A stretch of 32,291 bases of DNA from a virus: the IMG/VR virus record IMGVR_UViG_3300020188_000031, positions 1-32,291 of that record; one strand, 5' to 3'. Numbering within the stretch: position 1 is the stretch's first letter; the number at the start of each line of letters is the position of its first letter. The notes under the pieces were generated by a model, which saw only the letters and a program-made list of their open reading frames with translations, made no database searches and had not been told where the DNA came from. The translations under genes were made by a program, and so were the position numbers. Below, in pieces: positions 1,222 through 25,114 of the stretch.

Positions 1222-1572
1222 ATGGATACTGCAAAAGACCCTCTATACATAGCATTACATAACAAAAGTTATTGTGATAATGACTGGCGCGGAAAAGTAC
1301 TATTGGCTATTTTGCAAGTAGCGGTTGACGACTTTCTTAACCCAAAGTCATCGCTTGTTATCAAGAAGCAAGCAGAACATTTCATTTTTAACAGCGATGG
1401 CAACATGATGTTTAACTTATGTATGGCAGTGTTGGGTACTACTCCGGAAGTTTTCCGGAATCGTATCCGACACATGAAAGATAACAATTTACGATTAAGG
1501 AAATACAGTGAAAGAAAAACTCCTAACTATAATATGTCTGAGTCTGACCTTGAGTTTAGCACAGGCTTGTGA
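1222..1572 (+). CDS. Hypothetical phage protein, 116 aa
   Basis: Starts two bases after the stop of the annealing-protein gene (TAATTATG), so it is part of the same + strand operon. The N-terminal ~90 residues look like a folded helical domain with conserved-looking segments 'DWRGKVLLAILQVAVDDFL' and 'FRNRIRHMKD'. The C-terminal ~25 residues are polar and probably disordered. There is no signal peptide, membrane segment or catalytic motif that I recognise. The last 65 nt are shared, in another frame, with the start of the secreted peptide gene at 1508. A helical DNA- or protein-binding role is possible but not shown. Confidence 0.7.
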   Translation: MDTAKDPLYIALHNKSYCDNDWRGKVLLAILQVAVDDFLNPKSSLVIKKQAEHFIFNSDGNMMFNLCMAVLGTTPEVFRNRIRHMKDNNLRLRKYSERKTPNYNMSESDLEFSTGL

Positions 1573-1648
1573 AACGATAACTATATCTGGTGCAGATGGA
1601 AGTATTCAAGTATGTACCGTATGTCCGGATACAATAGTGTGTGTTTAA
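1508..1648 (+). CDS. Short secreted Cys-rich peptide (46 aa)
   Basis: GTG at 1508 is preceded by AAGGAA (1497-1502), a strong ribosome site 5-6 nt away. The product is 46 residues with a textbook signal peptide: 'MKEKLL' charged start, a hydrophobic core 'TIICLSLTLSLA', then 'AQA' before C21, which suits signal peptidase I cleavage after Ala20. A lipoprotein reading with C21 as the lipidated residue is less likely because Gln is at -2. The mature ~26-residue part has C21, C36, C39 and C45 and ends in 'CPDTIVCV', which suggests one or two disulfides in the periplasm. It overlaps the 116-aa gene by 65 nt in a different frame and ends at the 5' edge of the terminator stem. Function is unknown; a periplasmic modulator of lysis, superinfection or host envelope is a guess. 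Confidence 0.72.
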   Translation: MKEKLLTIICLSLTLSLAQACETITISGADGSIQVCTVCPDTIVCV

Positions 1649-1675
1649 GATAGGGGCGAAAGCCCCTTATCTTTT
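1647..1675 (+). terminator. Rho-independent terminator of the + strand recombination operon
   Basis: The stem AAGATAGGGGC (1647-1657) closes over a GAAA tetraloop (1658-1661) with GCCCC-TTATCTT (1662-1673). It has 11 pairs with a single bulged T, and is followed by TTTT. The C(GAAA)G loop and GC-rich core make it strong on the + strand. In the opposite direction the same hairpin lies 15 nt beyond the pqqA stop, so it may also end the - strand transcript, although the U-tract on that side is poor. It sits exactly between the two convergent transcription units. Confidence 0.88.
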
Positions 1676-1690
1676 ATACCTAAACAATAA

Positions 1691-1762
1691 TTACTTATTG
1701 CAAACGTACATGGTTACTTCGAAACCAAAACGCATTTCAGTAGCTGCTGGTTTTGTCCACAT
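1691..1762 (-). CDS. pqqA: PqqA: precursor peptide of pyrroloquinoline quinone (auxiliary metabolic gene)
   Basis: A 23-residue peptide that starts '[11 protein letters not shown]' and continues '[12 protein letters not shown]'. This is the PqqA pattern over its whole length: the N-terminal MWxKP, and the Glu-Val-Thr-x-Tyr core with Glu15 and Tyr19. In known PqqA these are the two residues joined by the radical-SAM enzyme PqqE (with the PqqD chaperone) and turned into PQQ after proteolysis and the PqqB and PqqC steps. A consensus AAGGAG (1769-1774) lies 6 nt before the ATG. Length and the spacing of the cross-linked pair are normal; Cys21 is less usual. No pqqB-E gene is nearby, so host enzymes must process it. 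It is the last gene of the - strand, with its own candidate promoter and tandem palindromes upstream and a terminator hairpin after it. A chance open frame with this match is very unlikely. Confidence 0.93.
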
Positions 1763-1790
1763 AATGTTCTCCTTAGTTAGTTGAATACCC

Positions 1791-1819
1791 ATTATGAACC
1801 TGTATTACATGTATTACAG
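1791..1819 (-). promoter_or_regulatory. Candidate promoter of pqqA
   Basis: On the - strand CATAAT (1791-1796, 5 of 6 to TATAAT) lies 17 bp from CTGTAA (1814-1819, a weak -35, 3 of 6). Transcription would start around 1784, leaving a leader of about 20 nt that contains the AAGGAG site. The poor -35 overlaps the tandem palindromes, which would fit a regulated promoter. This is pattern matching only. Confidence 0.42.
1801..1818. repeat. Two tandem 9-bp palindromes upstream of pqqA (possible operator)
   Basis: TGTATTACA occurs twice with no gap (1801-1809 and 1810-1818). Each copy is itself a palindrome with a central T (TGTA-T-TACA). The pair lies 39 bp upstream of the pqqA start codon and covers the spacer and -35 region of the candidate promoter. 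Back-to-back dyads of this kind are typical binding sites for dimeric regulators, phage- or host-encoded. No protein can be assigned from the sequence. Confidence 0.5.
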
Positions 1820-1828
1820 TGCTAAAAA

Positions 1829-2002
1829 CTAGGATATACGCCTAAGGCTTTTCATGAGAGTCGCTGTTACACGATCGGTATTTTTTGATACCTTACCATA
1901 GGTTACATTGAGATCGTGCAATACAGAGCGATTGTGGAGGTCGTTTTTAGTGAGTGACTGTTGGTTTTTCTTTAACGATGTATAAATCCATACCTTCGGC
2001 AT
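1829..2002 (-). CDS. Possible overlapping small gene, 57 codons
   Basis: An open frame from ATG 2002 to TAG 1829 starts inside the last 56 nt of the 73-aa gene in another frame. It covers most of the otherwise empty stretch between that gene and pqqA. Its product would be basic and polar, with segments 'SLTKNDLHNRSVLHDLNV' and 'NTDRVTATLMKSLRRIS' that look like ordinary coding composition. Against it: no Shine-Dalgarno precedes the ATG, so it may instead be reached by a frameshift from the 73-aa frame, be translated by coupling, or be a decayed extension. The same DNA also holds nested inverted repeats. It is listed as tentative. Confidence 0.35.
   Translation of the reverse strand: MPKVWIYTSLKKNQQSLTKNDLHNRSVLHDLNVTYGKVSKNTDRVTATLMKSLRRIS
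1870..1918 (-). other. Nested inverted repeats between the 73-aa gene and pqqA
   Basis: CACGATC (1870-1876) and GATCGTG (1912-1918) form a 7-bp outer stem enclosing a 5-bp hairpin GGTAT/ATACC (1877-1881 with 1888-1892) and a weak 3-bp pair ACC/GGT (1895-1897 with 1901-1903). Folded as RNA this would be a small three-way junction, and it could protect or process the transcript ahead of pqqA. It lies inside the tentative 57-codon frame, so the structure could be incidental. At 49 nt it is too short for a tRNA. Confidence 0.3.
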
Positions 2003-2168
2003 GAATAAGAAGATAATCGCCTTCTTCCTCAGAAAATTCTATCTTCACCATGGATTGTTCACCGTCTTCTAAGATTTCAATGTTCCAAATTTTCTTTCCG
2101 ATGAGTTCATCAACAGCGCGAGCTTGTTCAGAATCCAGCTCAGAGATTATACTATCTTCCTTATCCAT
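1947..2168 (-). CDS. Small acidic protein of unknown function
   Basis: A 73-residue, strongly acidic protein (many Glu and Asp) with a plausible mixed fold: 'ARAVDELIGKKIWNIEI' then two beta-like segments 'MVKIEFSEEEGDYLLIHAEGMDLYIV'. The ATG at 2168 follows GAGG by 7 nt and overlaps the end of the phosphoesterase gene by 22 nt, so the two are co-translated. No family is recognised. Small acidic phage proteins often bind and inhibit host nucleic-acid enzymes, but nothing here shows that. Confidence 0.72.
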   Translation of the reverse strand: MDKEDSIISELDSEQARAVDELIGKKIWNIEILEDGEQSMVKIEFSEEEGDYLLIHAEGMDLYIVKEKPTVTH

Positions 2169-2851
2169 TTACCGTCCTCGTTAAGTACCATAGGCATCAA
2201 TTTTGGTTGCCCTTCTATGATCATACCACAGCCAACGATAAATCTATTCTTAAAATTCTTTGCATAATCAAATGCCATAGACTTTTGTGAAGTCAAGCAT
2301 CCAACTTGCATTGACCAGATCAGTGCATCTGGATTACTAAAGTATCCAATACTAAATTTAGAATGATAGTGACCTTGAATTACATGACACCCCATCTGCA
2401 TTGAGAGCCGGAGTACATCGGCGGACATGCCATGAGTAAAGAAAGCACGTGTGCCATCAGACAATGTAATACGTAAATCATCCACCCACTTCCACTTTTG
2501 ACTGACGTTGAGATACTCATTATATGAACGAAGATAATCAACAGGTAGTCCATGTTTTAATGCACGTCGGTACACCAAGGATGAATGATTAGAATGTACT
2601 AGAGTCATCTCCGGGAAGATTTTTTCTAACTCTTTAATGTATCTTTTAGAACAACGTAATTCATCGCCAGCTGACATCAAGTCAGGATTGCTATCATGAA
2701 AACTGAGTGCGTGCTGATCTAATTCATCGCCGATATTTACAACTAAGTCTGGCTTGTATTTCTTTTTCAATGCTGTAAGAAAATCAAACGCATCAGGATG
2801 ATGATACGGAATATGTAAATCTGAAATGACTAGGACTGATTTGTACTTCAT
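2147..2851 (-). CDS. Calcineurin-like metallophosphoesterase
   Basis: A 234-residue protein with the full set of metallophosphoesterase motifs in order: D11-L-H13 (DxH), G41-D42-E43, N88-H89, T139-H140-G141 and G160-H-Y-H163 (GHxH). These residues bind two metal ions and hydrolyse phosphoesters. The substrate (nucleotide, nucleic acid or protein) cannot be told. There is no signal peptide, so the protein is cytoplasmic. The start codon at 2851 follows CGGAGG by a normal spacing, and a candidate promoter lies just upstream (2876-2903), so this gene, the acidic protein and perhaps pqqA may form a unit expressed apart from the late genes. Comparable enzymes are common in phage accessory regions. 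Confidence 0.88.
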   Translation of the reverse strand: MKYKSVLVISDLHIPYHHPDAFDFLTALKKKYKPDLVVNIGDELDQHALSFHDSNPDLMSAGDELRCSKRYIKELEKIFPEMTLVHSNHSSLVYRRALKHGLPVDYLRSYNEYLNVSQKWKWVDDLRITLSDGTRAFFTHGMSADVLRLSMQMGCHVIQGHYHSKFSIGYFSNPDALIWSMQVGCLTSQKSMAFDYAKNFKNRFIVGCGMIIEGQPKLMPMVLNEDGKWIRKIV

Positions 2852-23536: not shown

Positions 23537-25114
23537 TTATCCTTGTTGTGCTGCTTCTTGTGCTAACTGTTGTGCTACCTCTGGTGTTTGTTGTGCCATT
23601 TGTGCGGCAGCTGCTTCTGCTTGTTTTTGCATCATCATACGTTCTTGTGCAGTTGTAATCATTGCTGATGGTACTGATAATTTCTCAGCAATAATATTTA
23701 ACATCTCATCCACTTTTAACATTTGTTGACCTACTGGACCAGCTCCCTGTGCAATCTGTGCAAACTGTAGAATGTTTTGTACATCCTCCATATTCTGTGC
23801 CATTGCTAATGGTGCGACTGGACTGATCTTAATCTCTAATCCATTTACTTTTAATGGTAGATCAATAATGCCACGATCATCCATGACTTGTAATATTTTA
23901 GATACTAATGGAACCATAGTCTCATTAATGAGTCGACCAAATGCAGATCCTAAGTTTTGTGATAGTTCTTTCATACGCTCTACCACTTCTGTTGCTGATC
24001 GAGCTGACATGTTATCTGGTGGTAATGACTCATCTAATAAGATACGTTTGATATTCATACGTAGATCATTCATTACAATATTAGATACGTTAAAGTCACC
24101 AGCGCGTGGTAATGGTCTAAGTGATTCACCTTGTGGTCCGCCATTACGTGCTACAGGAATGATGGCTCCCGGCATAATTTTCACTGTGTTAGGATTTAAG
24201 ACACCATCATCAGCAGCTGTATAGACACCACTAATAGATAATGATGCATTTTTCAACACAAGCTCTAATGTTTTATTTAATGTTTTAACATCTGGCAATG
24301 CAGTAATAAGTGGTCCACGACCATAGATCTCACCAGCAACTTTGGCATAACGAGATACAATCCAAGGACTATGATCCATGCGACGATAAACTAATTCTTT
24401 TTTAGATTCTTTATGGATGACATGATAACAATAGTCGCCACGTTTTTGGTCAAAGATAGTTGCTTCTACTAGCTCTACATCATCTGTAGGTTTGTCATCA
24501 ATCTTACGTTGTAATTCTGGTGGAATCTCTGCATCTGTCCATTGACGCTGTATTGCTTCACCCTTCATACGAATACGTCTATATACATTGTCAACTTGAC
24601 CATCAGCTCCTTCTTCAAAAGAAACTAAGTATTGTGGTACAGATACAAAATTGATTGGATTAACTTCATCTCCCGGCTGGACTAACATTACTGCGGTACC
24701 AACACAAAGATCAAGTAAGAATTCACCAATCGCAATATCAAAGTTAGATTGTTTTAATGTATCAAATAATTTATCGTTATATAGATCTAATGCTGCTTGC
24801 GCTGCTTGTTTCTGTTCTGTTGGAATATCTGATCCCGGCTCTAGTCTGCACCATTTACGTTGTGGAGGAAAGATACCAGACTGCATGCGGTTGGCAAATC
24901 GTTGGGTAGAGTTTATGGCAGTAGAATCAAAGACACGATTCATTTTCTTTGTACCACCCACTTTACCGTCATAATGACCGTCATATAAATTACGTTGTGG
25001 CAAAGCAAACTCATATGCTTCTTCATATAAGTTTCTAAAATCTTCTTTTTTAATTAAAGCTTTCTCATGTCTTTTTAAAACATCTTCAGCTTTTAACCTC
25101 ATCATATCTACCAT
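23537..25114 (-). CDS. Portal (head-tail connector), T7 gp8-like, 525 aa
   Basis: Matches the podovirus head-tail connector family: N-terminal 'RNLYEEAYEFALPQRNLYDG', 'RVFDSTAINSTQRFANRMQS' followed by 'GIFPPQRKWCRLEPG', 'FLLDLCVGTAVMLVQPGD', 'SRYAKVAGEIYGRGPLITAL' and 'DVKTLNKTLELVLKNASLSI', then 'PDNMSARSATEVVERMKELS'. The C-terminus is Gln/Ala-rich ('AQQTPEVAQQLAQEAAQQG'). The length is close to T7 gp8 (536 aa). It forms the dodecameric ring that serves packaging and ejection. AAGG precedes ATG 25114, which begins just after the DUF6321-like gene. Confidence 0.94.
   Translation of the reverse strand: MVDMMRLKAEDVLKRHEKALIKKEDFRNLYEEAYEFALPQRNLYDGHYDGKVGGTKKMNRVFDSTAINSTQRFANRMQSGIFPPQRKWCRLEPGSDIPTEQKQAAQAALDLYNDKLFDTLKQSNFDIAIGEFLLDLCVGTAVMLVQPGDEVNPINFVSVPQYLVSFEEGADGQVDNVYRRIRMKGEAIQRQWTDAEIPPELQRKIDDKPTDDVELVEATIFDQKRGDYCYHVIHKESKKELVYRRMDHSPWIVSRYAKVAGEIYGRGPLITALPDVKTLNKTLELVLKNASLSISGVYTAADDGVLNPNTVKIMPGAIIPVARNGGPQGESLRPLPRAGDFNVSNIVMNDLRMNIKRILLDESLPPDNMSARSATEVVERMKELSQNLGSAFGRLINETMVPLVSKILQVMDDRGIIDLPLKVNGLEIKISPVAPLAMAQNMEDVQNILQFAQIAQGAGPVGQQMLKVDEMLNIIAEKLSVPSAMITTAQERMMMQKQAEAAAAQMAQQTPEVAQQLAQEAAQQG

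Follow-up and report, generated by a model that had tools for sequence, protein, structure and literature searches.

The window, a 32.3-kb virus record analysed over its whole length of 32,291 nucleotides, carries a gene for PqqA, the peptide that is spent in the synthesis of the cofactor PQQ. We consider it likely that this pqqA is a functional, substrate-only auxiliary metabolic gene (AMG), the phage providing the peptide and host enzymes making PQQ for methanol dehydrogenase. The reading rests on the gene itself, on its conservation in about 170 phage copies, and on its distribution among phages of methylotrophic bacteria.

The pqqA reading frame and its surroundings

The complete pqqA ORF lies on the minus strand at 1762-1691, from an ATG at 1762-1760 to a TAA at 1693-1691 (23 codons plus the stop); the plus strand at 1691-1762 contains no gene when read in that direction. 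The preliminary description had reported a 23-residue match to PqqA over its full length, a Glu15/Tyr19 pair at the spacing used by PqqE for cross-linking and a consensus AAGGAG 6 nt upstream, and had proposed a PqqA profile search; each of these observations was confirmed for the minus-strand gene. The search with Pfam PF08042 (PqqA) gave a significant match of 42.4 bits (E 6.3e-11, for a cut-off of 21.1 bits) covering profile positions 1-19 of 19, and a six-frame PqqA search of the whole record returned this ORF as its single match (E 2.2e-11). AAGGAG stands upstream of the pqqA ATG with a 6-nt spacer (AAGGAGAACATT followed by ATG), and the product has the form shared by the PqqA family, a short free peptide (23 aa) with its own start and ribosome-binding site. 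An ATG further upstream, at 1792, would give a 33-aa product; this start was discarded, since it is the inner ATG that follows the ribosome-binding site and agrees with the start of the profile. In Methylorubrum PqqA, PqqE joins Glu16 and Tyr20 while PqqD holds the leader (PMC10906245). The window peptide keeps this E-x-x-x-Y arrangement, E15 and Y19 being spaced like Glu16/Tyr20. A chance match is excluded by the profile score together with the existence of ~170 phage homologues subject to purifying selection, and on sequence grounds the ORF is an intact PqqA-encoding gene.

Table 1 Features of the window discussed in the text (positions on the 32,291-nt stretch)
Feature	Position	Strand	Evidence
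Phage ORF, 116 aa, convergent with pqqA	1222-1572	+	no Pfam or PHROG match
Terminator-like hairpin, core 1652-1667	1648-1671	.	1 found vs 0.2 expected; T-rich tail on + strand
pqqA, Glu15/Tyr19 = predicted cross-linked pair	1691-1762	-	translation; PF08042; only six-frame match
Ribosome-binding site, AAGGAG + 6-nt spacer	1763-1774	-	sequence; Shine-Dalgarno-like 4-mer in 170/170 phage copies
Leader/intergenic region, 184 nt, before pqqA	1763-1946	-	sequence
Phage metallophosphoesterase upstream of pqqA	2147-2851	-	PF00149 E 8.8e-7; phrog_221 E 3e-61
Head-tail connector	23537-25114	-	PF12236 E 1.9e-93; 84.8% identical to MEP301 connector

The record also encodes terminase, connector, major head protein, tail, holin, peptidase and Sak recombination genes. 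The surrounding phage genes support the phage context that had been claimed for pqqA, which lies among viral genes and not in mis-binned host DNA, and which is also present in complete phage genomes. After the connector of Methylophilales phage MEP301, the next best match to the window connector was that of a Pelagibacter phage (36%), and the window phage is, as judged from this protein, a podovirus related to the OM43 (Methylophilales) phage MEP301. Because the two connectors are 84.8% identical, its host is probably a methylotrophic OM43-type bacterium or a relative; OM43 strain HTCC2181 is the culture used in PMC8024684. The methanol-using host suggested earlier is supported by the MEP301-like connector and by the presence of pqqA in 185/187 genomes of the host family. 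Among the methanol, alcohol and glucose dehydrogenases then proposed as beneficiaries, only the methanol enzyme fits the likely host.

pqqA stands behind a gene pair, the metallophosphoesterase gene and a 73-aa gene, from which it is separated by the 184-nt leader. A nested inverted repeat in the leader at ~1870-1922 (CACGATC...GATCGTG around GGTAT-AAAAAA-ATACC) could be an operator, or a terminator serving the gene upstream. We also considered that the leader holds a regulatory RNA, an idea that was dropped since the Rfam search of the leader gave no match and RNA folding gave a z of only -1.7. A sigma-70-type promoter upstream of pqqA was also dropped, such sites being no commoner there than expected by chance. 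On the other side, the terminator-like hairpin sits between pqqA and the convergent gene, and the minus-strand RNA fold of this hairpin has an energy of -16.2 kcal/mol (z -3.4). In 19 of the loci compared, the gene next to pqqA on its upstream side belongs to the family of the convergent ORF. The window pqqA is predicted to stand alone as a gene unit.

Occurrence of pqqA in phages and in host genomes

When the pqqA region was used as a DNA query, six methylophage or methylophage-like records were retrieved, of which five matched via the pqqA stretch. When read, each contained a pqqA ORF, always with a Shine-Dalgarno sequence and never annotated as pqqA; because pqqA itself had helped to find these records, the 6/6 tally is circular and not usable as a frequency. 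Searching 50,697 phage records at the peptide level identified PqqA-like ORFs in ten methylophage or methylophage-like genomes, namely MEP301, MEP401, MEP402, P19250A, Venkman, four Melnitz strains and the spring-water podovirus ctXG6705. The sole further matches were two contigs filed as Acinetobacter phage MD-2021a. This entry was rejected as a phage example: of its two contigs one was inspected, and it is a piece of bacterial chromosome that carries pqqBCDE, fur and ppk; CAKLQF020000010.1 (144 kb, 'Acinetobacter phage MD-2021a') has these genes in the stretch read and is likely mislabelled. Queries with Pseudomonas-, Methylobacterium- and Gluconobacter-type PqqA found no additional phages in the collection. 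The carriers are deeply different phages, comprising podoviruses, a siphovirus and members of the Zobellviridae and Kyanoviridae (T4-like). HTVC008M, a Pelagibacter (SAR11) phage placed in Melnitz's family by PMC9004378, gave no PqqA match at E<=10 in the collection, which fits an acquisition that would be tied to the methylotroph host. pqqA occurs in every methylophage isolate genome found, that is, in those located mostly via searches able to favour pqqA carriers, with MEP431-434 and Venkman EXVC038S among the isolates outside this set.

The preliminary description had anticipated unannotated copies in related phages, and this was borne out by the ten genomes, in which the ORF is not labelled pqqA. 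In P19250A (KX815270.1) it lies unannotated at 28153-28082 inside a convergent intergenic gap. In Melnitz (MZ577097.1) a hypothetical gene is annotated over pqqA on the opposite strand, immediately before a tRNA-Leu gene, and in ctXG6705, as in Melnitz, an annotated hypothetical gene runs opposite pqqA. A gene of 72 nt falls below gene-calling limits and was missed in published genomes.

We then analysed the ~170 phage copies recovered by IMG/VR pattern scans, which returned at least 119 contigs per pattern. E15 and Y19 were invariant (170/170), and all 55 copies first found by the pattern that leaves both codons free keep Glu15 and Tyr19. Over 149 distinct pqqA DNA sequences, pS was 0.59 and pN 0.076 (pN/pS 0.13), the low pN being partly imposed by the search pattern; for codons 15-23, which are free in the second pattern, pS was 0.72 and pN 0.077. 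The ratio of 0.13 over so many distinct sequences indicates that the constraint is on the peptide and not on the RNA. By this substitution pattern, many unrelated methylophages keep pqqA through purifying selection that acts on its peptide. It resembles an AMG in being a homologue of a host metabolic gene (185/187 hosts) and in being maintained by selection (pN/pS 0.13). A Shine-Dalgarno-like 4-mer lies upstream of all copies, and a terminator-like hairpin was found within 80 nt downstream in 70/166, compared with 3.6 in shuffled sequence.

No pqqBCDE genes were found in the flanks of the viral loci from the first scan, and no PqqE above the family cut-off in 37 whole carrier records, window included; a complete phage PQQ pathway, with PqqB, C, D and E also encoded, is not what these phages have. 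We counted 86 distinct neighbour pairs among 153 pqqA loci, indicating that the gene occupies many genomic places. Its neighbours are phage genes, encoding major head proteins (capsid), SSB, endolysin, a nucleotide kinase-like protein and HNH endonuclease. The HNH endonuclease gene is directly downstream of pqqA in four IMG/VR contigs, and an adjoining endonuclease of this type possibly aids the mobility of pqqA between phage positions.

Frequency within the window's own lineage was estimated with the neighbouring metallophosphoesterase as marker for presence or absence, in place of the circular 6/6 tally. A connector-based search yielded mostly fragments ending short of the pqqA region. pqqA was nearby in 48/68 phosphoesterase loci with at least 2 kb downstream (offsets -845 to ~+4,690 nt), and whole-record searches found it in three more of the records without pqqA nearby. 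Among records of this lineage longer than 30 kb, window included, 9/11 have pqqA. It was absent from two near-complete records (34-36 kb) of a diverged branch whose phosphoesterase is 66-68% identical; a different host would explain this.

In the Methylophilaceae, 185/187 genomes have pqqA in 1 to 12 copies, usually several, and the small genomes of 1.2-1.3 Mb commonly have three. Stand-alone pqqA copies besides the pqqABCDE operon have been described in methanol-grown PQQ producers, with five in one strain (PMC9851590). The dispersed host copies, up to twelve, are often far from pqqBCDE, and some of them could stem from prophages or phages. Hosts and phages alike show both Lys and Thr at position 4. 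A change of Lys4 to Thr or Ser (MWTTP, MWTSP) was considered as a phage signature and dropped, such forms being present in 109/187 host genomes. Taking phages and hosts together, it is more probable than its converse, though by no means settled, that pqqA is near-universal and overlooked in methylotroph phages, and that many unrelated lineages separately acquired or repeatedly exchanged the substrate gene only, with the host supplying the enzymes.

Proposed role of the phage peptide and competing explanations

Under the proposed AMG role, the phage would transcribe pqqA as a stand-alone unit upon infection. Host PqqD would present the peptide to host PqqE, which would join Glu15 to Tyr19, and PQQ would be completed by a host protease, PqqB and PqqC. 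PqqA would be spent at one molecule per PQQ while the enzymes would be reused, and this stoichiometry is probably why only pqqA is carried. As host gene expression falls, a 72-nt substrate gene would be the cheapest means to keep PQQ flowing. Freshly synthesised methanol dehydrogenase, of the XoxF type and in some cases encoded by the phage, would be loaded with this PQQ, and methanol oxidation, the carbon and energy input of the host, would be sustained through the burst. Infected cells would then have more PQQ and more respiration.

One carrier, the 72-kb IMGVR_UViG_3300025120_009955, encodes pqqA together with a XoxF-type methanol dehydrogenase and a formate dehydrogenase alpha subunit, and it is on this basis that we group pqqA with methanol-oxidation genes. 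The methanol dehydrogenase is full-length, with a signal-peptide-like N-terminus, CC at 128 and WDYDG at 355, the last of which we take to be the lanthanide-type (XoxF) motif. The XoxF gene adjoins that of the 946-aa formate dehydrogenase alpha subunit at ~33989-38783 of the contig, and pqqA lies elsewhere on it; the contig also encodes a CsgG-like curli gene. A methanol dehydrogenase of their own was found in only 1/50 carrier records, many of which are fragments, and the peptide seems to be all that most carriers contribute. In acetic acid bacteria the PQQ level rises when pqqAB or single pqq genes are increased; pqqAB on its own had a modest effect in A. pasteurianus, at +29% PQQ (PMC7936290). 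PqqA may not be limiting in the hosts considered here because they already have several pqqA copies.

The same data bear on three other explanations. Near-identical host pqqA copies are many and dispersed, offering ample donor DNA for a tiny gene, and a host pqqA fragment could have been acquired by chance without benefit to the phage. We judge this passive carriage highly improbable: it is at odds with a pN/pS of 0.13 over 149 distinct sequences, with a Glu15/Tyr19 pair that is invariant also where the search did not impose it, with a ribosome-binding site in 170/170 copies and enriched terminators, and with the presence of pqqA in every methylophage isolate genome located and in 9/11 lineage records above 30 kb. 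This explanation is largely refuted. The reacting residues also weigh against interference, in which the phage peptide would be a decoy on PqqD/PqqE that lowers PQQ and, for instance, curbs host metabolism or competing infections. PqqA must bind both proteins (PMC10906245) and an excess of peptide could in principle titrate them; yet Glu15 and Tyr19, dispensable for a decoy, never vary, one pqqA phage also has methanol and formate dehydrogenases, pointing to methanol oxidation being promoted, and in an acetic acid bacterium PQQ goes up with extra pqqAB (PMC7936290). Such a decoy therefore appears very unlikely.

It is somewhat less improbable, but still unlikely, that PQQ is made and that the benefit lies elsewhere, with PQQ serving as antioxidant, as signal or as cofactor of another dehydrogenase. 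Sequence data do not separate the uses of PQQ. The association with methylotroph phages is strict, however, pqqA being absent from those phages of the collection that infect other PQQ users, and methanol dehydrogenase co-occurs with pqqA in one contig and in a Lake Baikal phage (PMC7678222); both points count against such other uses.

Implications and comparison with known systems

In coastal seas and lakes, OM43 and Methylopumilus bacteria consume methanol to an important extent. Should their phages regularly supply the PQQ pathway, methanol oxidation may be prolonged by infection instead of stopped, and substrate-only metabolic hijacking, if true, could affect how methanol is turned over in seawater and lakes. 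The system is also a clean test case for auxiliary genes, with one 23-residue peptide, one cofactor and one main enzyme, and cultured pairs exist (MEP301/HTCC2181, Venkman and Melnitz/H5P1, MEP401 and MEP402/FZCC0133, P19250A/IMCC19250).

Phage PqqA as such is not new, PMC7678222 being the precedent. In that work the Lake Baikal T4-like phage population VP_266 encodes PqqA and methanol dehydrogenase, and the same benefit was proposed (Coutinho et al. 2020, PMC7678222). As in the window phage, the encoded PqqA is predicted to support methanol dehydrogenase in Methylophilaceae. VP_266 is a single large T4-like population that itself encodes a methanol dehydrogenase, whereas the window is a 32-kb podovirus with pqqA alone, and beyond VP_266 we find pqqA across unrelated phage types, cultured isolates included. 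Among these is P19250A, which was said to have none of the reported AMGs (PMC7678222) and which, contrary to that statement, does carry pqqA. A 2026 survey (PMC13188868) lists viral pqqA, pqqD and pqqE on contigs from reservoir sediments among phosphorus-cycling AMGs; there pqqA is a catalogue entry, read as phosphate solubilisation, and the passages on it make no link to methylotrophs. pqqA goes unmentioned in the OM43 phage papers checked, and literature text searches, with most subscription papers outside their scope, returned no further report of phage pqqA. What is new here is the breadth across lineages, the cultured phages (one published as being without pqqA), the evidence for selection and the contig combining pqqA, XoxF and formate dehydrogenase.

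Compared with the PqqA of Methylophilaceae (PF08042), the phage copies are of equal length and share a common core, some peptides being identical, and stand-alone extra pqqA copies are normal in these hosts as they are in phages. Unlike bacterial pqqA loci, the phages examined have no PqqE gene and their flanks are without pqqBCDE. A further parallel is cyanophage psbA (photosystem II D1), an auxiliary metabolic gene. In both cases the phage would replace a high-turnover component of the host energy machinery, a protein subunit for psbA and the consumed peptide substrate of a cofactor for pqqA.
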